A stretch of 64,000 nucleotides of DNA from Tetrapyrgos nigripes. Taxonomy: Eukaryota > Basidiomycota > Agaricomycetes > Agaricales > Campanellaceae. The DNA lies in the NCBI GenBank assembly GCA_013368315.1, contig JAACJM010000308.1, forward strand, positions 20,266-84,265, given 5' to 3'. A model generated the notes under the pieces. It was not told the DNA's origin, ran no database searches, and saw nothing but the letters and a program-made list of their open reading frames with translations. The stretch's first letter is position 1, and the number at the start of each line of letters is the position of its first letter. Position numbers and translations under genes: made by a program. This document shows positions 24,363 to 40,532 of the stretch, one piece after another.

Positions 24363-24933
24363 GTAAAGCCTATGCCTTCCATAACTCCTTCTGATTGCTT
24401 CTGACTCCTTTCTGACTCTTTCCTTTTATTCCATTTCATTTCTGATTCATTTCTGAGTTGCCACAAATCTGTTTAGTTTACATTTCCCATTGGATCCTAT
24501 CTGACTCATATCAGATGCTCATACTTCTCTCATTTCCACTTCATATTGCCCTTCCTTTTCTTTCCAAAGGGTTTCCACCCAATGATAGCAAATTGAGTGT
24601 TTCCCTTTGTCTTTACCTTTTCCAGTCTGATAGTTCCCTATCTCATTCCATTTACTTCTGCAACTTTGTAGTAGATAGCTTAAGTCTAAAACTGATTTAG
24701 CTGGTCTCCTATCGCTTCTGATCAATTCTGATTAGACAACTAGCGAGGTGGTACCAATAGTGCCATTAACTTTCTGTCTTGACTTCCTGGTCGTTCCAAC
24801 CAGATCCTCCCTCTTTCTACCTATCCTCTTCCTGTCCAGTTCCGTCTGGATCTATTATTGTTCCACTCTTCCCCATAGACCTCTGCCTGGGTCCATAGTG
24901 TTTCCTAGCACTAGGATCTGCCCAGACTTAACA
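24363..24933 (+). mobile_element. Solo LTR, family B, + orientation
   Basis: It starts in 'GTAAAGCCTATGCC' and ends 'CTAGGATCTGCCCAGACTTA' plus ACA, like the copies at 26769 and, inverted, 28179. It contains the conserved core TAGATAGCTTAAGTCTAAAA. The first bases are altered and no 5-bp target duplication is visible, so it may be truncated or recombinant. Confidence 0.75.
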
Positions 24934-26763
24934 CTCTCCATAACAACAGGGCAAGACTTGGCAGAAAACAAAGCAGAGACCAGCGAGTCAGCCCCCAAGA
25001 GGAAATGTAACAGGAACTGTAGACGATGAGGTAGGAAAAAGCTGTATGGACATCTCATTAAAGGCCTGCCAGGTCTGGAGATCATCAGATGGAACTCAGT
25101 GATGTGGGTACTTCAAGGTGCTTCGTGGAGGAGGAATCATGCAGGACTTAAAAATCATCAATGTCACTTGCAATAGGACTTATTCCTTTTTGGACATCAA
25201 CTTTAGGCTACTTACAGTTAGGTATTATACTAGTCTATTCTTTGTAGCCTACTACTTGTATTCACATATTATATAAGCTATGACATTTTGGTCCTGACGT
25301 CTCATAGATGTCGTGCCTATGGTGCTCTCACCTCTTTACTCATGCTGGCTGGGCATCTATCTCTGCCTTGATGCCAGTAGTGTCTGGCCATCTGACCCAT
25401 GAGACCAGGTCAAACCTTATTTCTCAGCTTGCGAGGTCACTAGACGGTACCACTCGTCTTCACAGGTCCCAACTCAGTCAATCACCTCAAGCATGTGGCC
25501 AGCATTGCATGATATGCCATCAAGAATGATTCTCAAAACTCCCATCTCTACCATCTATTCCTTGCCATTGGTGAAGTCTTGGATATTCAGTACCAAAGCA
25601 AACATCACAATAGCATATTCTTTTCCAAACTCTCAGATCCAACCACCTTCATCTCTTACCAAGTGATGGTACTGCATACAGCAACATTGGAAAATTGTGA
25701 TAACACTCACAACTGGGTCTGGTCAATGAAGTGAGGCACTTTACACCATGTTCAAGGACAGCTTGTACATCAACTTGCACTTCTGGAAAGCCAACATATA
25801 TTTTTCAAAGTGACGTATTACATGCTCTTGGGGTGGCAATGCTACAGGCTCTTGAAGATGGCCTCCAAATCCCAACTTTCCCATACACTGAACCTGGAGG
25901 ATAGGCATGTTTTGTATGTGAGTCAGATGACGGAAAGCAATGACATATCATAGATTCAACAAACCAAAAGTGTACTCATTGCATGCCACCTCTTCCTCTC
26001 TCCAACCTTGCACAGTGTATCATCAAGCATGTGGGAGCCCACATACTCTTTGATCTCACAGTAGTGTAGTGGTCCACTGTCCCTATTCAACACATGGCAG
26101 CAAGGGTTCAACATTCCTATGACACTGGTTCAATCCTTGTGAGTTAACACCCTAGACACTCCAGCTTCTACCATTACTGATTGCTGTGCCCACCTTTCAA
26201 ACACCCCATGCCTGTCTTACTCCATTTATATCACCAGCTGCTAATCAGCTACTGATCACTTCATGTCAATAAGACCACATGGTCAGAAGGTCCAGGCTTG
26301 CTGATGGGGGTGGTGTCTCTATGGCCACCTGAGTGTGGTGCCCTGAAAAAATGGATAGCTATGAAGCCCAGCAGCATGAATGATATTGCACTGTGGTATA
26401 GATGGGATAGATGGTGTGGTGTGAGAAGGAGAAAATCTGAGATAAGACAGCCCAGCATGAAAAGGAATCTTACTATATTCTATAATTACATTTCCAGCCA
26501 CAGGATTACTATATCCTGTTATTTCAACTCTCTCATGTCTGATAGAACTATGTAGGCACATGTATTTGGTAGACCCTACCATATGCCTTAGCACAATAAA
26601 ATAAAATAAAAAAAACATCAATCCAATGACAGAACCCTGTACCTGACCAAAAAGGGAGATCAGATTGACTGGGCTAGAAGTAGCTGTTCAAACCTTATGA
26701 AGTTCAAATACCAGCATCAAGTCCATGTTCTGATGTTCCAAAACATTGCCCTGAGGATTTTGG
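24934..26763. other. Unassigned, possible exon fragments
   Basis: Short coding-looking pieces follow the LTR (24934-25029, ending in a basic RKCNRNCRR tail). The rest shows no consistent frame. No repeats were recognised. Confidence 0.35.
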
Positions 26764-26768
26764 ACATA

Positions 26769-27612
26769 TGTAAAGCCTGTGCCTTTCCATAACTCCTTCC
26801 AACCATTTCTGAATACTTTCCATTTCATTTCTGATTCATATCTGAGTTGCCACAAACCTGTTTATCCTATCCGAGTCATTGGATAGTAACCAGACAGCTT
26901 GCATTTAAGGATGTTCACTGGTTTTTGGCGGGTTTTATGTAATCATGATGTTGAGCTTGAATGTGCAAAATTTTTGAGCCCAGATATGACCAAGATATGA
27001 CAAAAACAAGTTTTGGTACAAATTGTTCCAAAAAGTGATGTCACACTGAACCAAAAAAGGATTTCAAACCCTATGGTTTGGACCCACAGGTTTTGTATAT
27101 GATTTTGTGCCTGCAGGTGAGTGGCTGTACCTAAGAAGCCACCAATCTTGTTTTAATCATAACCCAGTCAATTCTTGACCATTTTGGATGCTACTAGGCT
27201 CAAAAATTTCATACATTCAAGCTCAACATTGAAAAACCTGTGAACATCCTTACTCACATTCATACTTCTCACATTTCTGTTTCATATCTCACAGCACCAT
27301 GTGCTCCCCTTCCTTTTCTTTCTAAAGCAAATCGAGCATTCCCTTTGTCAATAATTATTTTAGTTATATTATCCTTCATATCTGATTCTTTCCTATCTCG
27401 TTTCCATACAATTCCGATGTAGTACTTAAGCTAGCTTAATTCTGTTAGACAACTGGTGAGGTGGTACTAATAGTGCTATTGACTTTCTGTCTTGACTTCC
27501 CAGTCGTTCCCTGTCCAGTTCTGTCCAGATTCATCATTGTTCCACTCTTTCCCAAAGACCTCCACCTGGGTCCATAGTGTTTCCTAGCACTAGGATCTGC
27601 CTGGACTTAACA
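26769..27612 (+). mobile_element. Solo LTR, family B, with exact TSD ACATA
   Basis: The LTR runs from TGTAAAGCCTGTGCC to GCCTGGACTTAACA and is flanked by ACATA at 26764-26768 and 27613-27617. Removing the internal MITE (26908-27250) leaves about 500 bases. A solo LTR with an intact target duplication shows that a complete retrotransposon once sat here and was lost by LTR-LTR recombination. Confidence 0.9.
26908..27250. mobile_element. 343-bp MITE, TA target, inside a solo LTR
   Basis: The ends AGGATGTTCACTGGTTTTT and its inverse (AAAAACCTGTGAACATCCT) differ at one base, and the inverted similarity extends inward (TGTTGAGCTTGAATGT…AAATTTTTGAGCC on both sides). TA lies at both borders. Related LTRs read directly from 'gacagct' to 'cacattcatac' where this one is split. 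TA duplication suggests Tc1/mariner-type mobilisation; there is no coding capacity. Confidence 0.9.
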
Positions 27613-27617
27613 ACATA

Positions 27618-28084
27618 CAATTTTGTGGCACATATGAAGAACAAGCATCAGCACTTGGATATGGAGCAGGTCAGTGAAAAGGAACATGGGCAAATCATCA
27701 CAAAGAGATTAAGAACACAATCTATATTTCAGAAGCTCACAGCTCTAGATTGGCAGTATCATTCATAAAATAAGTGGATGACACTCTTACCAGGGAAAGT
27801 ATCAGAGAATCTTGCATTGGAGATGATTAATCTGAACCAGATGACGTTCAGTCCTTGTAACCTGCTAAAGCCAAAAGGATCATGATCATTGACTCAGATG
27901 AAGAGAGAATCAATGAGCCAGATACTCACATAGCAACTGATGAGTCTTCAGCACTCAAGTATGTTGATTATCCTGTTGTTAAGTGATTGGTCAATATGTT
28001 CTAAATGGAATTTTGAATAGAGACTTTCAAGAATCAACTTCAGCAGCCAAGGTTCAATCTACTCATGAGGAAAGCCACACTGGA
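27618..28084 (+). pseudogene. Gene fragments between LTRs
   Basis: The + strand frame after the LTR reads YNFVAHMKNKHQHLDMEQVS…; a second frame around 27885-27970 reads RIMIIDSDEERINEPDTHIA. The continuity is broken by stops. Possibly the remains of a transposase-like gene, but I cannot assign it. Confidence 0.35.
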
Positions 28085-28960
28085 AGAAAATCCCTGTAAA
28101 TATGCTGCCATACAGGGGTATTACAGCAGCCTTACTATAAGTCGTTCAATAAGTAATACACCTTACATTACAGGAGTATGTTAAGTTCAGGCAGATCCTA
28201 GTACTAGGAAACACTATGGACCTGGGCAGAGGTCTATGGGAAAGAATGGAATAATAATAGATCTGGGTGAAACTGGACAGGAAGAGGATAGACAGGAAGA
28301 GGGAGGATCTGGTTGGAAAGATTGGAAAGTCAAGATGGAAGGTTAATGGCACTATTAGTACCACCTCACTAGTTGTCTAATCGGAATCAATCAGAAAAGA
28401 TAGGAGACCAGCTAAATTGATTTTAGACTTAAGCTATCTACTACAAAGTTGCTAGCTTAAGTACTATATTGGAAGTATATGGAGTGAGATAGGGAATTAT
28501 CAGAAATGAATATGGAAACTACTGGAAAAGGTAAAGACAAAGGGAAATGCTTAATTTGCTTTGGAAAGAAAAGGAAGGGGAGCACAAGGTGCTATGAGAT
28601 ATGAAGAGGAAATGAAAGAAGTATGAATGTGAGCTGTCCGGTTAGTATCCAATATGAGTTGGATAGGATCTGATGGGAAATGTAAACTAAATGGATTTGT
28701 GGCAACTTGAAAATGAATTGGAAATGAAAATGAATCAGAAATCAAATGAAATGGAAAGGGAGTTATGGAGTATTACAAACACATATATTTTTCAGAACAA
28801 TCCTGTAAGACTGCTGTAAATCAGGGTGGATTATAGCAACATTTCAGTGTGACATAGTGTCACAGTAATACATTCTGTAATACTGCTGAGAAATACAGAG
28901 GTATTTCAGAGTGACACTGGTGTCACAGTTTTCACATATAGTGATCTATTCTCTGTGACA
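28085..28960. repeat. Interspersed AT-rich repeat, split by an LTR
   Basis: The outer parts (28085-28178 and 28768-28960) align with 56285-56520: 'ctgtaaata.gctg.catac', 'ggagtattaca', 'tttcagaacaat', 'gtgtcacagtaataca'. The alignment is continuous only if the LTR at 28179-28767 is removed. Confidence 0.7.
28179..28767 (-). mobile_element. Solo LTR, family B, minus orientation, TSD GAGTA
   Basis: Begins TGTTAAGTTCAGGCAG, contains GATTTTAGACTTAAGCTATC and ends in 'gggagttatg'. GAGTA occurs at 28174-28178 and again at 28768-28772. The surrounding repeat aligns with 56395 ('gggagtattaca') across the junction. The terminal ~20 bases seen in the 26769 copy are missing at the right end. An alternative end at 28777 (…ATTACA) would have the usual CA but no target duplication. 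Confidence 0.75.
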
Positions 28961-29741
28961 TGTGGTTATCAGATAATTACTCTGTAGCTTTCACATGACT
29001 AGCTCTATTGATGCACTCATTATTTCATCATATCACATCATACTTAGTGGTTACTTCTTCATCATATTGCTTGCACTGTTTCAGGAGGTAGATCACTAGG
29101 AATTTTCAGTTTCCTTTTACTTCTCCTTGTCTTTCTCTTTTGTTTTTGAACTGCTTTTGATGCTCCAGAGGATGTCGAAACATTTGAGCCATCGGATAAC
29201 TCAAAGAGGTCTGAGCCATTGAATGAGTCATAAGTAGGTGTGGTAGACTGCTCAGGAGTCAGAATTGGAGTTACATCTACTGAGTTAAAAGCAGGGAGAT
29301 CTTGCACTGCATCAAGAGTGCCAGGATTTGGTTCTTGGAGTTTTTCAACAGCCCTGTAGCAGTGATTAGATCACAGGTCCAGGCTGCAAAGATGTTAGCA
29401 AAAGAGGTGGATAGGAGGTGGCATACCATTTTTTCCATCTGTTCACCTAGTGAGAAATAAAAGGAATATCAATGTCTCAAAAAAACTTGAGAGAAGTGAT
29501 TGATGGAGAGAACAGACGGGAAAGAGGTGACACCATGCTCACAACAGAGTGCTCCAGGACTGCACACAGAGGGAGCTACAGGTCATTTGCAGACTTGAGC
29601 AGTGGAAACAATGTTATAAGGGAAGTAAAGGGGTATGCACATGCATGACAGGAACCTTGAAGTGAAAATGAAGAAACTTGAACGCCAGTCGAACATAGAA
29701 TCATGTGACCATGCTGCTGCCAAACAACGACATGCAGTGCC
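28961..29741. other. Minus-strand exon-like sequence, otherwise unassigned
   Basis: A minus-strand frame at 29307-29062 (…QDLPAFNSVDVTPILTPEQS…, with a Lys/Arg-rich KRKTRRSKRKLK stretch) looks coding and may be an exon of an unknown gene. I could not extend it. Confidence 0.35.
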
Positions 29742-30825
29742 TTGCATGCCACTTTCTCAAAACACCATGGGCTGCAAGGGATACAAGAAGCAGAAAACAA
29801 ACAAACTCAGAAAGACAAAGGATACTTTTTAGGCTCTCCCCTGGAGCTGTTTGAGTTGCATTTCTCCCAGTACCGAGACTCTTTTGGCAACTGTGGGGAC
29901 TTCTGGGCAGAATTTTGGGGAGAATACAAGAGCAACTATCCATGTACATTGATGAGCACAGAGTTAAGGGAGGTGCAGGAGATTATGGTCAGGCACAATA
30001 TTGATCAAGTGGAGAAGAAGGCAATCAAGGCCCTAGAAGCTGATGAGGATGATGAAGATGATGAAGATGATGACAAAGATGAACACGCAGCTTTGAGGCC
30101 AGTTGCCGGTGTTGCCAAGTTGTCTGCTAATGCGCCCATTGTCGCCAGCATGCCCACAATCACAGCCAACATGTCTATCACAGCCAGTGCGTCTGTTGCG
30201 CCCAACACGTCTACATTCACGGTGAATGCATTTCCAAACAAAAATGACATGTTGATAACACCCAAAGGACTTCCCTCCCTATTGATGACTCACTTGTGTC
30301 TGGGCCAACTGTGTCTGGTCCATCTATGTCTGATCCCAACACCAATCCAATCCTAGTGCCAATCCCAGCGCCAATCCTGGAGCCTCTGATAGCTGCAGAG
30401 ATGCTAACTTCAATGCTTTCAAGAAGCCACAGAAAGCCTCAAAGAAGAAGGAAGGGCAAAAGGAAAAGGAACCTGTAGTAGAGGAGAAAAAGAAGAGGCG
30501 GAAAGCTATACCCAGGACAGACGAAAAGAACATCTTGCTGGTTAGGGCAGCTTCTAATGAGGTAGGTTTATCCAGCACTTTGCAAAGGTTGTTCTCATAC
30601 TCTTCATAGAAAGTCAGCCAATGGTTCTCAACTCGCACGCAGTCTAAAGAGAACAGCATGCAGTTGTCAAGTCCATGTGGATACCCAATGCTAGGAAAAA
30701 TCAAGGATCCGGATGGAAGTCTTGAGTGGATTGGATGAAGATTCTGAGTGGATCCAGATAGGAAAGAGCTTATAAAGATAAATAGGGATTTCAGTCGGAA
30801 AGACTGGGAAGCTCTAGGGAACCAT

Positions 30826-31446
30826 TGTTAAGTCCGGGCGGATCCTAGCATTAGGAAACACGTCAGACCTGAGCGGAAGTCTTATTGGGGTTTTAGAAAA
30901 GGATGAAGACGGAACTGGGCGGAACCGGTAGTCTCTTGAGAATGAAGTATAGGGAAGATACGGAATGGAATCTGTTAGGATAGTGCTTTGTTGTCTGAAG
31001 TCGGATCAAGTTAAGAGACCAGCTAATTCAATTTTAGACTTAAGCTATCTACTACAAAGTTGCTAGCTTAAGTACTACTTCGGAAACTATCAGAATGAAT
31101 AGGAGTAAGATAGGAATGGTTCGGAAATGAAGGAAAAGCAGATGGTGCTATTGGAGATGGATGGAGTACTGCGGAACGAAGTAGAAACAAAGTGGAACAG
31201 ATTGGAGATGAAATGGAGTAGCTTTGGAGATTAGATACGAGCTATCCGGTAGTTATCCGAAATGAATCACGAGTTCCTGGATGGGATCCGTGTGTGGAGA
31301 TTAATAGTGGAGCTCGGATATGAAATTGGAAATGAATGATCGGAAAGTGTTCGGGATGGAAGGGAATGAAGTTCAAAATAAAAGGAAAAGAAGTTCGGAA
31401 AGAATCAGATACGATCGGAACGATATACGGAAGCATAGATATTACA
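30826..31446 (-). repeat. 3' LTR of the chromovirus
   Basis: 621 bases. It contains the palindromic core with arms at 31038-31047 and 31064-31073. Relative to the 5' LTR it has about 35 extra bases (around 31071-31107) and lacks one copy of 'gtggaaacaaa'. Confidence 0.95.
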
Positions 31447-31448
31447 GT

Positions 31449-31460
31449 ATTCCCCTCTTA
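31449..31460 (-). promoter_or_regulatory. Polypurine tract
   Basis: On the sense (minus) strand AAGAGGGGAA lies directly before the 3' LTR start, the expected position for the plus-strand DNA primer. Confidence 0.75.
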
Positions 31461-31664
31461 GGCCTTGAGCCCTCGAGAGGCATGGAAACGAATAGTAATC
31501 CGTCGGAATGAAGTTGAAAGGACAATAGAAAAAAAATAGAAAAGGGGTGGACCCTGGAAAATGAACAATGGAATCGGAAACAAATGGAAGCGATCTAAAT
31601 TAAGTAATTTGTAACGAAATGAGCAGGAAACAATAAGGATGGTCCGTGCGCGTATTCGAAAACG

Positions 31665-31671
31665 TATAAAA
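31665..31671 (+). promoter_or_regulatory. TATA box of the antisense gene
   Basis: TATAAAA sits 47 bases before the ATG at 31718, in a purine-rich context (TATAAAAGGGAGAGG), a typical spacing for a short fungal 5' leader. It lies inside the retroelement, outside the LTR. Confidence 0.65.
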
Positions 31672-31717
31672 GGGAGAGGTCCTCGGAAACATAGCAAAAC
31701 CAACTTCACCGTTATCA

Positions 31718-32729
31718 ATGTCTTCTACCACCTCTTACGTTCCCCTTGACGTTTCCAAGCTCCTGACGGAGTATATGACCGAATGGACAACGTCCAACAC
31801 AAAACCTCCGGCTCCTGTGCATCCCGAACCTTTGGTGGAGAAAACGATTGATGATAGTATGAGGGTAACGGAAAAGCATCGGGTCCGCCAGGATAACAAG
31901 AATGGTACGTGACCAGTTTTGAATTGGGTTTTCCACGGATGCTAACGGAATCAACTTTAGCTTGACAAGCATATGAAGCTCTGATGGAGGAATATGAGGC
32001 TGCAGAGGAGTTGATGGAGTTGTGGTTGGAGCAGCAGAAGGATGCGGAAAAGGCGAAGAAGGAGGAATTGGAGGCTGAAGAGGGAAAACGGCTGGAGGAA
32101 TGGGCAAGGAAGGAGAAGAAACGGATGGAACGGACGGAACGTGGTCCAGAGGTAGAGATGGAGCATTCCGATGCGGGCCCGTCAGAGAAGGCGAGAGGAA
32201 AGAGGAAAGCAAATCCCAGACCGAGTAGTCCTCGTGCGGCTCGGAGGCGACGTAGGGACGAGGGATCTGGGGATGAAGACTCGGAGAGTGAGGAAGAGGT
32301 TGAGGTGGAGAAGGGAGAGGCATATGCCGAGGTACGTTTGTCTTTCCGTTTTTTCTTTACCTTCGGATTTTGACTTTTATTGTATAGCGGTGTTCCCGAT
32401 GTACCCGACTCGGTGTGGAGTGCACGTCCCAAGGCGATGGGAAGCGTGCTTGCGAGTCCTGTGCGGCATCACGCGTGGGGTGTAGCTTCACCGGTCGGAA
32501 AGCCCTCCTTCCCAACGTCTTGACCCTTTGTGCCATACAGTTGGCCCAACTCCGTCGTATAATTCATATAGGGAATGTTCTGGAAGCGATGGCGGAATCG
32601 TTGAACATCCCGCTTCCCAAAATGGAGGATGAGGCAAGGTTGCTAGACATGCCGGATTCGGTCGGGAAGCCGAAGAAGAAAGGAAAGGGGAAGAAACCGA
32701 GGTCAAAGGCAGTGGTAGAGGAAGATTGA
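31718..32729 (+). CDS. Antisense gene of the chromovirus: coiled-coil, zinc-cluster-like protein (296 aa)
   Basis: Three exons, 31718-31904, 31970-32331 and 32388-32729, join in frame to 297 codons with no internal stop. Introns are 65 and 56 nt, with GTACGT donors, a GCTAAC branch-like motif in the first and TATAG ending the second. The protein has a polar N terminus, a long charged coiled coil at about residues 65-120 (EEYEAAEELMELWLEQQKDA…), a basic KRKANPRP…RRRRR patch, an acidic stretch, then CSRCTRLGVEC…CESCAASRVGC at about 184-215. The spacing CX2CX6C…CX2CX6C is like a fungal zinc binuclear cluster. It ends in a KKKGKGKK tail. A DNA- or chromatin-binding role is inference. It runs opposite to gag-pol between the chromodomain and the 3' LTR, and is intact while pol is broken. 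Confidence 0.8.
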
Positions 32730-32954
32730 GGAAGGAACGGTTGCGCGCCGGACGCGATGGACAAGAATATTTGTATATAGATTTTTTTGTAATGGATACT
32801 CGACCGGACCCGGATGGGAAAAAAATTTTGTTGGAACAAATTTCGGGTGAAGTTAAGATGCGATCGGGGTAAAAGGAAAAATTGAGAAAAATTAGAATAA
32901 ATTGAAATTAGTGAAGAGCGCTGGAAGGGACGGAAAATGTCGGAACAATAAGGA

Positions 32955-33425
32955 TTAAGATGAAATTGGAAGAGGACCGGGCTTGTTCAGATTTTTCTGA
33001 TGATACTCATCTATAGCTTCTTCGGCTGTCAGCTCATCTGCGGGAAGCCAGGAAAATTCTTCATCGGTGCCTTCATAACCAGACCATTGTACCAAATAAA
33101 GTAGAGGACATTTCCGACGGCGCCGATCAATTTTCGAGTCTAAGATTTCAGTGATTTCGTATTCAAGTTCACCTTCAATTTTGACTGGAGCAGGTGGATC
33201 TGGGATACGATTTGGAATCGTATTCGGGACAGCGGGTTCTAGTTGGGACACATGGAAAACAGGGTGGATCCCATGGAGATAGTCAGGGAGCTTTATGGCA
33301 TAAGAAAGAGAGCTCGGACGAGAGATAACTTTGAATGGACCAAGGAATTTCTCGGAGAACTTCAGAGTGGGTCTTGTAGTTTTTATGTGTTTGGCAGACA
33401 CAAAAACCTCGGAACTGATAGGGAT
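32955..33425 (-). CDS. Pol C terminus: integrase tail and chromodomain
   Basis: The open frame reads SAKHIKTTRP, FLGPFKVISRPSSLSYAIKL, HPVFHVSQLEP and then the chromodomain EYEITEILDSKIDRR…YLVQWSGYEGTDEEFSWLPA, ending in TAA-side sequence after GPLPISS. Chromodomains of this class direct integration to heterochromatin by reading histone H3 methyl marks. Most aromatic-cage positions look kept. It is joined to the integrase core by a frameshift near 33415. Confidence 0.85.
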   Translation of the reverse strand: MPISSEVFVSAKHIKTTRPTLKFSEKFLGPFKVISRPSSLSYAIKLPDYLHGIHPVFHVSQLEPAVPNTIPNRIPDPPAPVKIEGELEYEITEILDSKIDRRRRKCPLLYLVQWSGYEGTDEEFSWLPADELTAEEAIDEYHQKNLNKPGPLPISS

Positions 33426-33429
33426 TTCT

Positions 33430-34275
33430 GGTCGGCCTGTACCTTGTAATGTTTCTGAGCTTCTGGAATCTCATCCCGAAGGAAACCATGCAGTTCCTCG
33501 AGATTGACAACGAAATGTCGGGCGCGTTCGGAAGCGAGATTGTAGTCGGGATGAACTGTTAAGTTTGGGTGAAACCCTTTATTCATGAAGAAGGGTGTGA
33601 TTCCGGTGGAAGCGTTCGGAGCGTTATTGTAAGCGAACTCAGCGATGGGAAGTAAGGAAGACCAATTATCCTGTTGGTAAGAACAATAGATCCGGATGTA
33701 CTGCTCGAGTGTCTGATTCGTGCACTCGGTTTGTCCGTCGGCTTCCGGGTGATAACCCGAAGTGAAATGAAGTTCCATATTCAAAGCTTTTCCTAAGGAT
33801 TGGAAAAAATGGGAAACGAATTCGGAACCGCGGTTGGAAGTGACATGGTTAGGAACACCATGCTTAGAAAAAACATGAATAACGAATAGTTCCGAGAGCT
33901 GTTCCGATGTAATGGTATTGTGAGTCGGAATGAAGATTCCTTGTTTGGATGCACGGTCCACAATTACTAGGATTGCTGTGTATCCGTTGGAATCTGGTAG
34001 TTGTTCGATAAAATCCATGGAAATCGAGTCCCATGGACGGACTGGCACGGGAAGTGGTTTTAGGAGACCATAAGGACGATGTCGACGAGGCTTGTTACGA
34101 CCACAAACCGTACAGGAAGCGACATAATCCCGAACGAATTCTCGGACCTTTGGCCAGGTATAGTGGCGTCGGATAAGGTCAAGTGTCCTGCTAGGGAATG
34201 GTCGTGGTATTGTCGCAAAACTTGAAGTCTAAGGTCGGAAGCACCAGGAACGAATATCCTATCGTCCAAGCGTAA
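33430..34275 (-). pseudogene. Integrase core, catalytic Asp changed to Asn, frameshifted
   Basis: The zinc-binding N-terminal part (…HDHSLAGH…CTVCGRNK) is at about 34270-34080 with a frameshift near 34170. The core starts PVRPWDSISMDFIEQLPDSN with the first catalytic D. The second motif reads HVTSNRGSEFVSHFF, where the family has SDRGSEF, so the second catalytic Asp is AAC (Asn). The Glu in YHPEADGQTECTNQTLEQY is kept. GAC to AAC after a C is a CpG transition. This integrase should be inactive even without the frameshifts. Confidence 0.9.
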
Positions 34276-34299
34276 TAACCTGGATTCATCGAGTTTCCA

Positions 34300-35535
34300 T
34301 CAGGATGATGGGGAATCCTTAGCTAATTTGAGACCGGTTTGTGATTCCGGATTGGAAGCGTAGGATTCTCGGATTGTTGATAATGGATGCATGGAGTATG
34401 GCTCGGAGTGATTCAGAAAGTTGTTCTTGGGTGAAGACTGGGCGGAAATTCTGCGGATTAACCTTGGCGTAGTTGCTATCCCCCATTGTCTAGTGAGTGA
34501 GTCGGGTTTTGCACCTAATTTACCTGGTCGGAACCAGATAATAAGATTGAAGGCGGAAAGATACTCGGACCATCGGACTTGTCGTCGTGTTAGAATTTTG
34601 GTGGTTGAAAAATATTCCAAATTCTTGTGGTCGGTAATGACATCGATAGGGGATCTGGAGCCTTCCAAATAGTGTCGCCAGATTCGGAAAGCTTCCTTGT
34701 CGTGAACATCGTAATTGAGTTCAGCGGATTGTAAGGTGTGTGAATAGAATGCGATGGGATGAATCTCTCCGGAATCGTACTGGAGAGAGAGGATTGCGGC
34801 GATAGCGTAGTCGGAAGCGTCGGTTTCGACTATGATCTTTTGGTTCGGAACCCAATGACCAAGGATCAGAGCAGAAGTAAAAGCGTGCTTAAGGTAATCG
34901 AAAGATTCCTGACATGCCTGCGTCCATTTCCACTGGGTAGTCTTTCGGGTGAGACGGGTTAAGGGTACAACGATATCCGAATAATTGAAGATGAAACGTC
35001 TGTAAAAATTACAGAAGCCAAGGAAAGATTGTATATCCTGGACCTTCCGAGGAACAGGCCATTCTAGGATAGTTCGGATTTTGGAAGCATCCATTGTTAA
35101 CCCTTCAGGGGAGAGAATGTAACCTAGATACTCCACGGTATCAATGGAAAAGAAGCATTTTTCGGGATTGACGAAGAGTCCGTGCTCTCGGAGCCGACGG
35201 AATACTTCGCAAACATGCTTCTGATGATCCTCCTCATTGTCGGAATAGATCAGGACATCGTCAAGATAAACGATGACAGTGACGTCGAGGAGATCCTTGA
35301 GGATGTCGTTGATAAATCGCTGAAAAGCGGTGGGAGTGTTGCTAAGACCAAAAGGCATCACTTTCCATTCGAAGGATCCATAATGGGTCCGAAAAGCGGT
35401 TTTCCATTCATCCCCCTCGGCGATGTGGACCAAGTGGTAAGCGTGACGGAGATCCAACTTGGTATAGATTTTCGCACGCCAGGGAGTGTCTAAAAGCTCG
35501 GAAATAAGTGGAAGCAGATACCTATCCTTCTATGG
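34300..35535 (-). pseudogene. Reverse transcriptase (C-terminal part) and RNase H
   Basis: The frame reads DRYLLPLISELLD, YTKLDLRHAYHLVHIAEGDE, FGLSNTPTAFQRFINDIL and the catalytic VYLDDVLIYSDNEEDHQKHV. RNase H motifs follow: VETDASDYAIAAIL, LNYDVHDKEAFR and DVITDHKNLEYF. RT copies the element's RNA and RNase H removes the template. The frame ends at 34300 before the integrase, where the link is broken. Upstream, the RT block between CVDF and KDRYLLPL has been lost. Confidence 0.9.
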
Positions 35536-36540
35536 AAGTCAACGCAAAGCCAAAGCTCTCCGTTTTTCTTCTTCACAAAAAGGACCGGAGCCGTGAAGAG
35601 TGAGGATGAAGGTTTAATAAAACCTATAGTCAGATGTTTGTCGATAAATTTTCGTAATTCTCCTAATTCCCTGTCGGATACCGGATAAATCCGGGCAATC
35701 GGCAGAGCCGCACCTTCAACAAGGTCAATCTTGAGGTTGTAGGGGCGATGCGGAGCCAGTTTATCCGAAAGTCTTTCGTCAAACACATCGGAATAGTCAG
35801 CTAAATATTCGGGAGCCTTTGGATAAGATGGGGTTTCTGAATTTGAGGCTTTCGCATGAACCTCAGCATCCGAAGTTAACCGGAGTGCCATTGGTTCAAG
35901 CTGATCCTGTTTGCAACAGCGAAGGAAAGCTGCTGCTCCAATGATGCTAATGCGGGTGTCGTCAACGGAAGATGCCATTTGTGATACGGAAGGATAGAAA
36001 TAGATGGGTTTGTACGGCCATGATGTTTTAGAACGAATGGGTGGCATTACAGCTGGAAGTGGTTTGGAAACTGGAGAATCCGGGTCAGCCTCTGAGGGCG
36101 ACACACAGGGTCCAGAGCTCAGAGTGACAGCAACCAGTTCGGGGTCATGGAAATCAATGTTTCCTTTTACCCAGTCAACCGACAGGTTGTAGTGGGAAAG
36201 GAAACTATATCCGAGGACTCCCTTACAAGTTGAGTCGAGATTAGTGACGTAGACGTCAAGAGGAATTTGTCCCCCCTTCGGAAAGTAAACAGAAAGTCGG
36301 CATACTTTATTCAGGGTGCAGGGTACGGAACCGTCAAGTAAGCGTAGACGAACGGGAGGAATGGAAAGGGTAGGTAGGGAATGTTCGGAAACGTAAGTAG
36401 AATCGATAAAACAATCTGAGGAACCAGAATCCAAAAGCGACGGAAACGAAATGGAAAGTTCGGGTTTAGTATATGACGGAATAGAAAGTGGAATGACTAA
36501 GGATTTGATGGAAAGAGCGGCGGCGTTGAGAGTAACCTCC
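35490..36540 (-). pseudogene. Protease and RT N terminus
   Basis: Reading from about 36540, the frame gives a linker, then LLDSGSSDCFIDSTYVSEHS, the aspartic protease active-site motif, then GVLGYSFLSHYNLSVDW. A variable linker follows, then LAPHRPYNLKIDLVEGAALP, the RT start (about 35765), and FTAPVLFVKKKNGELWLCVD. After CVDF the frame runs into HRRIGICFHLF: about eight residues of the RT fingers are missing and the frame is shifted (near 35535). Confidence 0.9.
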
Positions 36541-38111
36541 TGATTGGCACGATCCCAGTCAACGCAACTCCGACCTCGTGCCGAGGCATCAGAGTCGCTG
36601 ACTATTTTGGAGACTGCGTGGAAGCAGTGCCAGTCACGGAAGTACTACCAGACAAGGTGTTTTCCGTGTTTGCGGCTCGGCCGTGAGCTTCATTCGCCGC
36701 CTTCCGCTTGTTACAGTCATCCGTCGAATGCTTCCCGCCACAGAACATACAGAGATTGTTCTTCTTGCGGTGGTCCCTTTCGCCTGGGATAGCTTTCCGT
36801 CCTTTCTGAGTTTGTTAGCCCAGGGTTTCTTCTGACCGGAAGAGAACGAAGACAACGAGGATGAATTAGAGTTGGAATTATAATTGGAATTGGAGGGATT
36901 TCCAGATCTTCCACCTTTACCGGAGTTTGAGGACTTTCCGGAGCCGGATCCGGAACTATTACCTCCCGAGCCTTTCCCCCCGGAATTCCCTTTTCCCCCG
37001 CTTCCTTCTTCCCGTTTCTTTTCAGTTTGATGACGCCAGTAACGGGAATCGATTCGGAGAACCTGGGATTTGAGACAGGGAAGGTTCGTTTCCTCATAGG
37101 CTAGGGCAAGGGCATCCTTGATTTGCAGAGCCAAACCCTTTCGGAAAAAGTGTCACAAAGAATTCTCATCCCAAGCGACCTGCGAAGCAAGTTGTTGGAA
37201 CTTGACACAGTATTTCGTGGCCCGATCGGAATCCTTCATGAATAGGGCCTCCAATCGGTCCTCAGCATCTCCGACCTCATCGAAGACCCCAAAGTTATCC
37301 TTCAGCTCCTTGACGAAAATACCAAAGTCAAGGGTCCACGGAGCGGGTTCTTCGGGATCCGGGTTGAGGATTTCCGGTTCAAAGAATTCGAGTGCGGTGC
37401 CAGAGAGATAGGAAAGAGTGAAGCTGATTTTTGCGGCATCAGTCGCATATGCCTTTGGACCGTTCTGGAGATTGATCTGGATCTGGATCTGGAACGGACG
37501 GAGCTTCTTCGGATCCGACCCATCGAAAACGTCAGGTTTCTTCACTTCCGTCTTTTCACTGTGACCAGGTGTAACTTTTCTGATGATCTCGTTGAAATTT
37601 TGGAGAGCGGTAATGAACTGCCTCCTTTTGTCGTCGTCATCGCTGTTGCTGTCGGAACCGTCGGAACCACCATCTCCCGGAGGTCCATCATCTGGTGGTC
37701 CTCCGCCACCGTCGTCAGATCTGCCTCCTCCACCACCCTGATGTTGTTCATTGTCGTCCCCGTCATCTCCCTGACCATAACGCTGGCCCGCTGGGGGACC
37801 ACGGCCGTCATCGGAGGGTCCTACTCGAGAGGATCCTTGAGTTTGCTGTTGGACATATGAACGGCTTTGGGTTTGTGTAAGAGTTCCAGAGTCTCCTGGC
37901 TCCAGGCCATCCCAGCTATCGAGAAATTCCTTAAACGGACTCGTGCGGGTTTGGTTGGGCTCGGGTGTGCGAAAATACTGCCAGAGCGTCTGTGTTGGCG
38001 AATTTGAACGTTACGGAAGAGGTTGGAATAATAAGCGTTTTTGAATGGAGTCACCGGAACCGTAAGGTTCGGTGTCGGGGAAGGAGTTCGTGGTTGAGAG
38101 CGTTGGGACAT
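36540..38111 (-). pseudogene. Gag with CCHC zinc knuckle, frameshifted
   Basis: ATG at 38111 (MSQRSQPRTPSPTPN) lies 31 bases inside the 5' LTR border. The N-terminal region shifts frame near 37980-37870. A Gly/Asp-rich linker (DDGGGGPPDDGPPGDGG) precedes the capsid-like domain at about 37545-37153 (FDGSDPKKLRPFQIQIQINL … KYCVKFQQLASQVAWDE). Then comes a Gly/Ser/Lys-rich region and a knuckle CMFCGGKHSTDDC at about 36755-36717 (CX2CX4HX4C), which is out of frame with the preceding part owing to an indel near 36785. Gag would package the RNA and form the particle. Several indels make it non-functional as it stands. Confidence 0.85.
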
Positions 38112-38128
38112 TGTAGACAACAAGAGGG

Positions 38129-38139
38129 AAGTCTAAAAT
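38129..38139 (-). promoter_or_regulatory. Self-priming-type primer binding site
   Basis: On the sense strand ATTTTAGACTT lies two bases downstream of the 5' LTR. It is an exact 11-base complement of AAGTCTAAAAT inside the LTR (38347-38357 on the + strand). In Tf1/sushi-group elements the RNA 5' end folds back to prime at such a site. I saw no convincing tRNA 3'-end complement here. Confidence 0.7.
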
Positions 38140-38141
38140 GC

Positions 38142-38736
38142 TGTTAAGTCTGGGTGGATCCTAGCGTTAGGAAACACGTCGGACCCGAGCGGAAGTCTTA
38201 TTGGGGTTTTAGAAAAGGATGAAGACGGAACCGGGCGGAACCAGTAGTCTCTTGAGAATGAAGTATAGGGAAGATACAGAATGGAATCCGTTAGGATAGT
38301 GCTTTGTTGTCTGAAGTCGGATCAAGTTAAGAGACCAGCTAATTCGATTTTAGACTTAAGCTATCTACTACAAAGTTGCTGGCTTAAGATAGGAATGGTT
38401 CGGAAATGAAGGAAAAGCAGATGGTGCTATTGGAGATGGATGGAGTACTGTGGAACGAAGTGGAAACAAAGTGGAAACAAAGTGGAACAGATTGGAGATG
38501 AAATAGAGTAGCTTTGGAGATTAGATACAAGCTATCCGGTAGTTATCCGAAATGAATCACGAGTTCCCGGATGGGATCCGTGTGTGGAGATTAATAGTGG
38601 AGCTCGGATATGAAATTGGAAATGAATGATCGGAAAGTGTTCGGGATGGAAGGGAATGAAGTTCGAAATAAAAGGAAAAGAAGTTCGGAAAGAATTGGAT
38701 ACGATCGGAACGATATATGGAAGCATAGATATTACA
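38142..38736 (-). repeat. 5' LTR of the chromovirus
   Basis: 595 bases. If AAGTCTAAAAT marks the RNA 5' end, U3 is 38736-38358 and R-U5 about 38357-38142. It lacks about 35 bases present in the 3' LTR next to the palindromic core and has one extra 'gtggaaacaaa'. Confidence 0.95.
38347..38357 (-). promoter_or_regulatory. Putative RNA 5' end / self-primer sequence
   Basis: Sense AAGTCTAAAAT, complementary to the primer site at 38129-38139. It forms the edge of the conserved hairpin core and is retained in most LTR copies of the window. Confidence 0.6.
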
Positions 38737-39910
38737 ACCATCGAGGAAGGATAGGAGACCAGCTTTGTTGAGTTTGCACTTAAGCTATCTACTACAAACT
38801 TTCTAGCTTAAGTACTACTTTGGAGAGCATAGAAATTAGATAGGAAAGGATTGGAAATGAAGGGAAATATAACTATAGCAGGAAAGGTGAAGGGGAGCAC
38901 CTTATAAGGAAAGTGGAGCTATGAGATATGGATTGGAGATGAATCAGATATGAATCAGAAATGAAGGTGTGAATAAGGAAAAGGGAAAAGATCGGAAAGC
39001 AATAGGAAAGTAATGGAAACTAAGACTGTACCGGAAATTCATAGGACTGTACTGGAAAGTCATAGAAAAGTACAGGAAAGTGCATAGATCTTACAGCAGT
39101 CTAGAGAACAGCACCTGGTCTAAAGACACAGATGTTCTATTGAGTGTCCTCAACAATGAAGCCATCAGTGGTCCCCCCAAGAAACCCATTGATTACAAAT
39201 TCTATGAGCAACACAAGGATTACAAACCCAAGTCGATGCAGCCTACAATGAACATTTTGGTCAACCCAAAGATGGGGAGAGGTTTAAACTCAATAAACAC
39301 GTTGCTATCGCAAAAGAGCTTTTCAAAAAGGAGGACCTGGACACCCAGAAGAAGATTTGTAATGAAATGGAACAGGAGCATGCAAAACTTGAAAAGGAGT
39401 ACGAGAGATTGCAAGAAGTTGACAAGTACAATGTCTCCAACAATTCTGTGGTCGACAGGTGTGTATCCTAAACCTAATGTCTGCCTCCCTGAACCAGATC
39501 CTCCAAGACTTCTCCAAGGCAACAAAAATGAAAATCAGTTTGCTCGCAATGGGAGAGGACTTGGAAGACAGCAACCAGGACAATATCTTCATGTGCAGGT
39601 GAGAAGTGATTTGTGTTCTGTGACTTTTTCAAAAATTCTAATAATTCCTTCTTGACAGTGTTCAAGTAGGGGAAACACCTGGGCCAAATCCAATGGCTTT
39701 CCATGATTGGGACCCTGTGGGGTTAGATAGCAGAATACACAAGGTCATGTTTCAGGTTAGAGCAGGGTGAGTATTGTCACTTTGGCTAAAGTCCCTACTA
39801 ATGTATCCTTCTGCATGGACAGGTTTGCCTGCAAGTCCTCCCAATTGTAAACAGGTGGAGAAAGCAGGGAATACCTCAGAGCTGACTCTCGACCTCAATG
39901 TGTTGGTCAC

Positions 39911-40532
39911 TGTAATATCTATGCTTCTATACATCTTTCCGATCGCATCCGATTCTTTTCCGAACTTCTTTTCCTTTTATTTCGAACTTCATTCCCTTTC
40001 ATCCCGAACACTTTCCGATCATTCATTTCCGATTTCATATCCGAGCTCCACTATTAATCTCCACACACGGATCCCATATGGGAACTCGTGATTCATTTCG
40101 GATAGCTCGTATCTAATCTCCAAAGCTACTCCACTTCATCTCCAATCCGTTCCACTTTGTTTCCACTTTGTTTCCACTTCGTTCCGCAGTACTCCATCCA
40201 TCTCCAATAACACCATGCGCTTTTCCTTCATTTCCAAACCCTTCCTATCTTACTCCTATTCATTCCGATAGTTTCCAAAGTAGTACTTAAGCTAGCAACT
40301 TTGTAGTAGATAGCTTAAGTCTAAAATCGAATTAGCTGGTCTCCTAACTTCATCCGACTTCAGACAACAAAGTACCATCTTAACGGATTCCATTCCGTGT
40401 CTTCCCTATACTTCATTTCCAGAGACTACCAGTTCCGCCCAGGTCCGTCTTCATCCTTTCCTAAAAACTCCAACAAGACTTCCGCTCAGGTCTGACGTGT
40501 TTCCTAACGCTAGGATCCGCCCAGACTTAACA
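39911..40532 (+). mobile_element. Solo LTR, family A, + orientation, TSD GTCAC
   Basis: Runs TGTAATATCTATGCTTC … CGCCCAGACTTAACA, flanked by GTCAC at 39906-39910 and 40533-40537. It is close in sequence to the chromovirus LTRs at 30826 and 38142 but in opposite orientation. Across it the host exon frame is continuous (…DLNVLVT then HESPAKAGQV), so it sits in a coding exon. Confidence 0.95.

Follow-up and report, generated by a model that had tools for sequence, protein, structure and literature searches.

A conserved, intron-bearing antisense gene with a zinc-cluster-like module in a family of Tetrapyrgos nigripes chromoviruses

The window analysed here is a 64,000-nucleotide stretch of contig JAACJM010000308.1 of Tetrapyrgos nigripes. 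We found that positions 30826-38736 are occupied by a complete chromovirus insertion on the minus strand, as judged from its LTRs, its target-site duplication and the order of its Pfam domains (Table 1). RVT_1, RT_RNaseH, rve and Chromo follow one another between the two LTRs, which is the arrangement of a chromovirus; the protease match falls below the Pfam cut-off. The 5' and 3' LTRs differ at 20 of 584 aligned positions, and the differences are transitions without exception. The longest sense frames of the element are 409, 384, 285 and 281 amino acids, so the sense genes are broken, in agreement with the first-pass annotation of this DNA, which had described gag and pol as disrupted. The CpG observed/expected ratio is 0.96-1.25 across the parts of the element versus 0.22 at 1-24000 and 0.24 at 41000-64000. 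Such CpG-depleted surroundings of a CpG-normal element fit a decay of older repeats that is driven by methylation.

Just 3' of the 5' LTR in the sense direction, 11 nt (ATTTTAGACTT, within window 38102-38141) are complementary to a stretch within the LTR, an arrangement like that of Tf1-type self-priming. A solo LTR of the same family lies inverted at 39911-40532 with GTCAC on both sides, and several older LTR-like repeats akin to the element's LTR (families D1-D5) are found at 24429-30882.

Table 1. Features of the chromovirus insertion and of its antisense gene (window coordinates).
Feature	Position	Strand	Evidence or remark
Target-site duplication ACCAT	30821-30825 (left), 38737-38741 (partner)		direct reading
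3' LTR of chromovirus	30826-31446	-	LTR alignment
TATAAAAG, probable core promoter of antisense gene	31665-31672	+	TATAAAA in 30/30 copies
Antisense gene exon 1, ATG at 31718	31718-31904	+	sequence reading, family alignment
Intron 1 with the family's acceptor, GTACGT..TTTAG, 56 nt	31905-31960	+	GT/AG in 30/30 copies
Exon 2, charged, probably coiled-coil; basic patch KRKA..RRRRR; acidic patch; TGA 31963-31965	31961-32331	+	
Intron 2, GTACGT..TATAG, 56 nt	32332-32387	+	GT/AG in 30/30 copies
Exon 3, zinc-cluster-like module (codons 32391-32483), conserved helix, basic tail	32388-32729	+	
Integrase C-terminal part, SH3-like and chromodomain	32958-33467	-	Pfam Chromo E 5.4e-9
Integrase	33386-34225	-	Pfam H2C2 and rve
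Reverse transcriptase and RNase H	34303-35526	-	Pfam
Protease-like and start of reverse transcriptase, frame differs from rest	35493-36641	-	Pfam Asp_protease_2 E 0.0083, below cut-off
Gag region	36650-38110	-	inferred from position only
5' LTR of chromovirus	38142-38736	-	LTR alignment
TCGGAA, 32 on the antisense gene's strand, 5 on the other	30826-38736	+	spread over LTRs, coding regions and non-coding internal DNA

A gene of three exons and two short introns runs antisense to gag-pol in the interval that separates the chromodomain from the 3' LTR, and our reading bore out the position, orientation and exon structure first proposed for it. The TATA box said to precede it is present as well (TATAAAAG); its distance from the ATG is 53 nt, near the 47 originally given. 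However, the claims that the gene is intact and free of stops over 296 codons did not hold for the window copy. When the acceptor is aligned with that of the family (AG at 31959-31960), codon 64 reads TGA, as it does in 4 of 30 aligned copies, most others having CGA or CAA at this triplet. The 296-codon frame needs an AG nine bases downstream (31968-31969), which may serve as the acceptor in this copy. The window copy, alone among the 30, also lacks 18 in-frame nt of exon 3 (after 32630), which are kept in a diverged sister element, L051 (EEWTGM versus EEWSGM). Because of the stop seen with the family splice site and this unique loss, the window's own copy of the gene is probably dead. Sense-strand frames of 213 and 247 amino acids overlap the gene in the window. 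On the 3' side of its stop at 32729 lies ACTCGACCRGACCCGGATGGG (32795-32812), which is kept in L051 (about 1833-1893), nearly twice there, and is a possible candidate for a 3' UTR or binding site.

The first-pass annotation had made its proposal depend, among other things, on other copies of the element carrying the gene, and on a dN/dS that is not near 1. We found the gene by DNA search at no fewer than 40 places in the same 98.5-Mb genome, with 83-93% DNA identity; the figure is a minimum, as 40 of the 54 candidates were scored. The best 30 of these copies were aligned. Both introns have GT and AG ends in all 30, with lengths that vary from 54 to 72 nt, and TATAAAA is kept throughout. The spliced frame is open in 12 of the 30 copies and gives 301-305 amino acids. 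Every one of 20 long copies has the three exons antisense to the integrase-chromodomain region and adjoining the 3' LTR, that is, an antisense open reading frame (aORF) between pol and 3' LTR; a second LTR fell inside the stretch examined for 16 of them. None of the sense frames in the long copies exceeds 1165 amino acids. By a rough estimate the difference in length alone would explain why an open antisense gene can be found in a broken element, so we attach no special meaning to that pairing and do not claim that the gene is better preserved than pol. Distances between copies in the antisense gene and in the RT-integrase region are correlated (Mantel r 0.74, with 0 of 2000 permutations as high), which indicates that the antisense gene and pol travel together. 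These sequences establish the antisense gene as a genuine part of the element, and the family gene is alive, or was so until recently.

Selection was assessed by the method of Nei and Gojobori, in which the pairs are non-independent and CpG decay introduces a bias; all controls agree in direction save one mirror frame. The median dN/dS of the antisense gene was 0.27 over 406 pairs from 29 copies and 0.29 over 55 pairs from 11 intact copies, both sets excluding L005, which is nearly identical to L004, and insertions relative to the window copy. These values are well below 1. The pol medians were 0.21 for integrase and 0.17 for the chromodomain (19 of 21 sequences each) and, with L034 and rows of less than 90% coverage dropped, 0.17 for RT-RNase H (18 of 21). 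Diversity at codon positions 1, 2 and 3 of the antisense gene was 0.061, 0.046 and 0.121, with 0.105 and 0.112 in the introns. At non-CpG columns, 9 of 240 second positions were parsimony-informative versus 18 of 78 intron positions (P 1.4e-6). The shifted plus-strand frames gave dN/dS of 0.89 and 1.36 and the six minus-strand readings 0.32-1.47. Summed over 29 copies, the true frame contains 12 in-frame stops versus 47-395 in the eight other frames. One sense-strand mirror frame has a low dN/dS of 0.32, yet it contains 80 stops; low values in a mirror frame are a known effect of codon register. These comparisons indicate that the antisense gene is under purifying selection and is conserved in this way across copies.

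A chance open frame retained through shared ancestry might be suspected, since related copies can keep open frames for a while and the two sense frames mentioned above overlap the gene too. We rejected this explanation, which we regard as hardly credible, on the strength of the dN/dS, codon-position, intron and frame controls and of conservation down to 46% identity.

The pattern CX2CX6C…CX2CX6C first noticed in the product was confirmed, its full spacing being CX2CX6CX9CX2CX6C. None of the six cysteines varies across the 14 proteins compared, among them the sister that is 46% identical. The same spacing is found in the fungal Zn(2)-Cys(6) regulators (PF00172), whose consensus is CX2CX6CX5-12CX2CX6-8C. 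Unlike those regulators, the antisense protein is borne by a retrotransposon, mostly lacks the basic residues that are usual between the second and third cysteines, and matches Pfam Zn_clus weakly: 11 of 14 members gave a match, the best E value was 0.015, and the best score of 15.9 bits lies below the curated cut-off of 21. A search of solved structures returned no PDB relative of the protein, and an AlphaFold model of exon 3 was of low confidence (pLDDT 67.9, pTM 0.34). Protein-database searches with the full length (2403 candidates) and with the exon 3 alignment (1767 candidates) found no relatives in other organisms. A reverse transcriptase search of the same database gave 6797 matches; the best 120, which are those listed, reach 72% identity at most and point to mushrooms (Trametes, Armillaria, Pleurotus, Lentinula and others). 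Since so many mushroom reverse transcriptases are present, the gap probably lies in how sensitive the searches are towards a gene that evolves fast or is unannotated, and is not proof of absence. We consider it probable that the antisense gene encodes a DNA-binding protein.

A search of the genome with the exon 3 protein gave 84 matches in 71 loci, 47 of them close and 24 at 29-48% identity. Compared with the 150 chromodomain matches listed (150 of 942 candidates scored), 65 of the 71 loci face an opposite-strand chromodomain at most 4 kb away on the 3' side, and none has a same-strand chromodomain within 4 kb. A 66th locus has an integrase on the opposite strand. The remaining five are the diverged C113, C248 and C304, a fragment in C143 and a match at the end of contig C212. 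The diverged loci were judged by coordinates in 23 of 24 cases, and one sister, L051, was read in letters. Homologues thus lie antisense in related elements, which had been suggested as a check on the gene. L051 has TATAAATT, an ATG at 731, all six cysteines and intron 2 in the same place. Its identity to the window element is 83% in the reverse transcriptase and 84% in the chromodomain versus 46% in exon 3 and 33% in exon 2; evolution of the antisense gene is thus far more rapid than that of pol.

It had also been argued that introns on the antisense strand outlive retrotransposition. Our data fit this argument, but the intron content varies. All four elements of the L051 group (tier 2a) lack intron 1, the match running straight across its position, and close-family matches to the same query begin near the intron-1 point, at residue 31 of the query. 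At C85, a tier-2b locus like C420 and C108, 27 nt separate the exon 2 match from the exon 3 match within one reported open frame of 384 amino acids, so that, as far as coordinates and reported open frames tell, intron 2 is probably absent there. A precise loss would point to past reverse transcription of a spliced antisense RNA. An element-borne antisense gene whose introns differ from one element to another can serve as a natural archive of how introns are gained or lost.

As a control we read L052 (clade B), the 3' end of a distant chromovirus with a chromodomain about 47% identical and a pol frame of 1372 amino acids. It also has an antisense gene, with TATAAAAG at 196, an ATG at 260, introns at 376-427 and 1388-1443 and one between them with an uncertain donor, and a product of about 338-343 amino acids. 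This protein has a coiled coil, a basic patch and an acidic end, without a zinc cluster. Its main exon found five further loci in the genome at 31-100% identity. Five of the six clade B loci have an opposite-strand chromodomain 465-606 nt away, and C91 has none among the matches listed. Homology between the zinc-cluster and clade B antisense proteins was rejected, as an hhalign profile comparison detected no relation (probability 0.4%). As the gene that occupies this position in the distant clade is an unrelated, coiled-coil one, mushroom chromoviruses may have gained antisense accessory genes, or exchanged one for another, repeatedly. The clade B elements C118 and C363 have antisense genes that are 100% identical over 248 amino acids, and one of them has an open pol frame of 1372 amino acids; they are probably recent insertions.

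The abundant 3b elements were represented by L053, a single example of 1151 bases, whose longest plus-strand (antisense) frame is 66 amino acids, and by a second piece in L050 with antisense frames of 113-150 amino acids, partly opposite sense ORFs. The 3b chromoviruses have a Cys/His-rich sense ORF after pol (GRCRYG.RSGRRCR..H.GRH.GC..C; L053:705-1151 and L050:7361-7969, both on the minus strand). The L050 ORF is 202 amino acids long and resembles that of L053.

Fungal zinc clusters classically recognise CGG half-sites. We found the hexamer TCGGAA in excess across the window element, with 32 occurrences on the antisense gene's strand versus 4.9 expected from dinucleotide shuffles (sd 2.1) and 5 on the other strand versus 4.0. 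The 3' LTR has 5 (0.4 expected) and the sister L051 has 14 (2.3 expected). The sequences without the zinc-cluster gene have 0 (L052), 1 (L053) and 0 (the 3b part of L050). The flanks of the window element have 1 at 1-24000 (1.4 expected) and 7 at 41000-64000 (1.7 expected). Over 20 copies of the element the motif occurs 598 times on the gene's strand and 108 times on the other. Within the four pol frames, which overlap by up to 82 nt and were summed, its sense form occurs 15 times versus 5.8 in synonymous shuffles, with every one of the three codon registers represented. The idea that single motif sites in the LTRs are under selection found no support and was rejected, as CpGs in a CGGA context were no better kept than other CpGs across 36 aligned LTRs (0.73 versus 0.74). 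The strand bias of TCGGAA is not required by DNA binding and does not exclude it.

An open-access literature search, with subscription journals outside its scope, found no antisense accessory gene described for a fungal chromovirus. The nearest counterparts are plant Ty3/gypsy elements (Retand, Grande and RIRE2), which share the antisense gene and its position between pol and 3' LTR; in Retand, antisense TRP28 genes are described in nearly all recently active clusters and their protein is predicted to bind DNA (PMC11963269). Those elements, in contrast, are non-chromoviruses of flowering plants whose usual domain is TRP28 and not a C6 cluster, whereas here the host is a fungus and two introns are conserved, the word intron being absent from the main text of that report (PMC11963269). 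HBZ of HTLV-1 is described as a spliced antisense nuclear regulator of its own provirus with a TATA-less promoter in the 3' LTR (PMC10186651). The gene reported here resembles HBZ and APH of HTLV in being antisense and spliced, as read from sequence, with a predicted nuclear role; unlike HBZ, a bZIP protein, it has a C6 cluster and a TATA box inside the element, outside the LTR (PMC10186651).

In Pfam scans that covered exons 2 and 3, nothing matched TRP28, and nothing suggested homology to VANC, the anti-silencing proteins of Arabidopsis VANDAL elements. The comparison with VANC crosses element classes, as VANDALs are DNA transposons. The likeness is that of a fast-evolving, element-borne protein with diverse exon/intron organisation (PMC5735166). 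The target motif of VANC21 is described as an element-specific array of high density in one orientation, and the TCGGAA array, a candidate target, has these properties, whereas the motif of VANC is tandemly repeated and lies in non-coding DNA (PMC5735166).

The explanation we favor, with roughly even confidence, is that the antisense gene encodes a self-targeting regulator, a nuclear protein that would bind CGG-containing sites across its own element family and regulate it in trans. The sequences themselves show that a family of fungal chromoviruses bears an accessory gene antisense to gag-pol in the stretch from chromodomain to 3' LTR, together with its introns, the selection on it, its conservation in sister elements and the oriented, element-specific TCGGAA array. 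The gene would have its own TATA promoter and be spliced; its introns would survive splicing of the genomic RNA because the gene is antisense to that RNA. The predicted product, of about 300 amino acids, would combine a charged coiled coil, a basic NLS-like patch, the C6 zinc-cluster-like module and a conserved helix, and would enter the nucleus and bind CGG-containing sites spread over its own element family. Regulation in trans could mean tuning of transcription, as by HBZ, or opposition to the silencing of methylated copies, as by VANC. Several results count against this explanation: the weak Zn_clus match and the scarcity of basic residues between cysteines 2 and 3, the search that found no PDB relative, the poor structure model, the CGGA CpGs that are kept no better than others in the LTRs, the excess of TCGGAA at 41000-64000 outside the element, and the low dN/dS of one mirror frame. 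The function is perhaps anti-silencing, and we prefer this form of the explanation because a CpG-rich element in a CpG-poor neighbourhood and LTR differences that are all transitions fit methylation and decay. A full VANC-like system, in which TCGGAA would have been amplified in one orientation over the element and one intact copy would activate or un-silence the family in trans, seems unlikely to us.

A protein that represses or tunes the element through partners and coiled-coil contacts, as HBZ does, without sequence-specific DNA binding, would leave TCGGAA to some other cause. The weak match to DNA-binding zinc clusters, the coiled coil and acidic patch of the protein, and the unrelated coiled-coil gene without a zinc cluster at the same place in the distant clade all speak for such a protein. 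However, its six cysteines never vary among the 14 proteins, and the array is found in both examined sequences with the zinc-cluster gene and is absent from the three without it; we consider this explanation distinctly less probable than a self-targeting regulator, if still a serious competitor. Somewhat further down we would place the idea that TCGGAA is bound by a host factor or serves as a sense-RNA signal (UUCCGA), while the protein has a different role, such as one in nuclear import, integration or packaging. The strand bias of 32 versus 5 and the presence of the motif in coding regions as well as LTRs are as expected of an RNA signal, and host zinc-cluster factors likewise read CGG. Against this, a dense, same-orientation, element-specific array is also described for the DNA targeted by VANC21 (PMC5735166).

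The suggestion of the first-pass annotation that the gene may have been captured from the host and is passively carried found nothing in its support once the loci were compared, and we regard it as very improbable. The introns and the promoter of its own do make the gene look like a host gene, and the diverged C113, C248 and C304 are without an element partner among the matches listed. But these three are short or interrupted (C113 has two TGA), genome searches showed no host paralogue, and the 65 of 71 loci noted above are joined to an opposite-strand chromodomain.

Antisense accessory genes have been described for LTR elements of plants and for some retroviruses, mostly without a known function. 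A gene of this kind that has conserved introns, its own promoter, a zinc cluster and a candidate target motif allows a direct test of what antisense genes are for. These elements may bring their own regulator along, and if the full VANC-like system held, a fungal LTR retrotransposon would have evolved a means of self-recognition.
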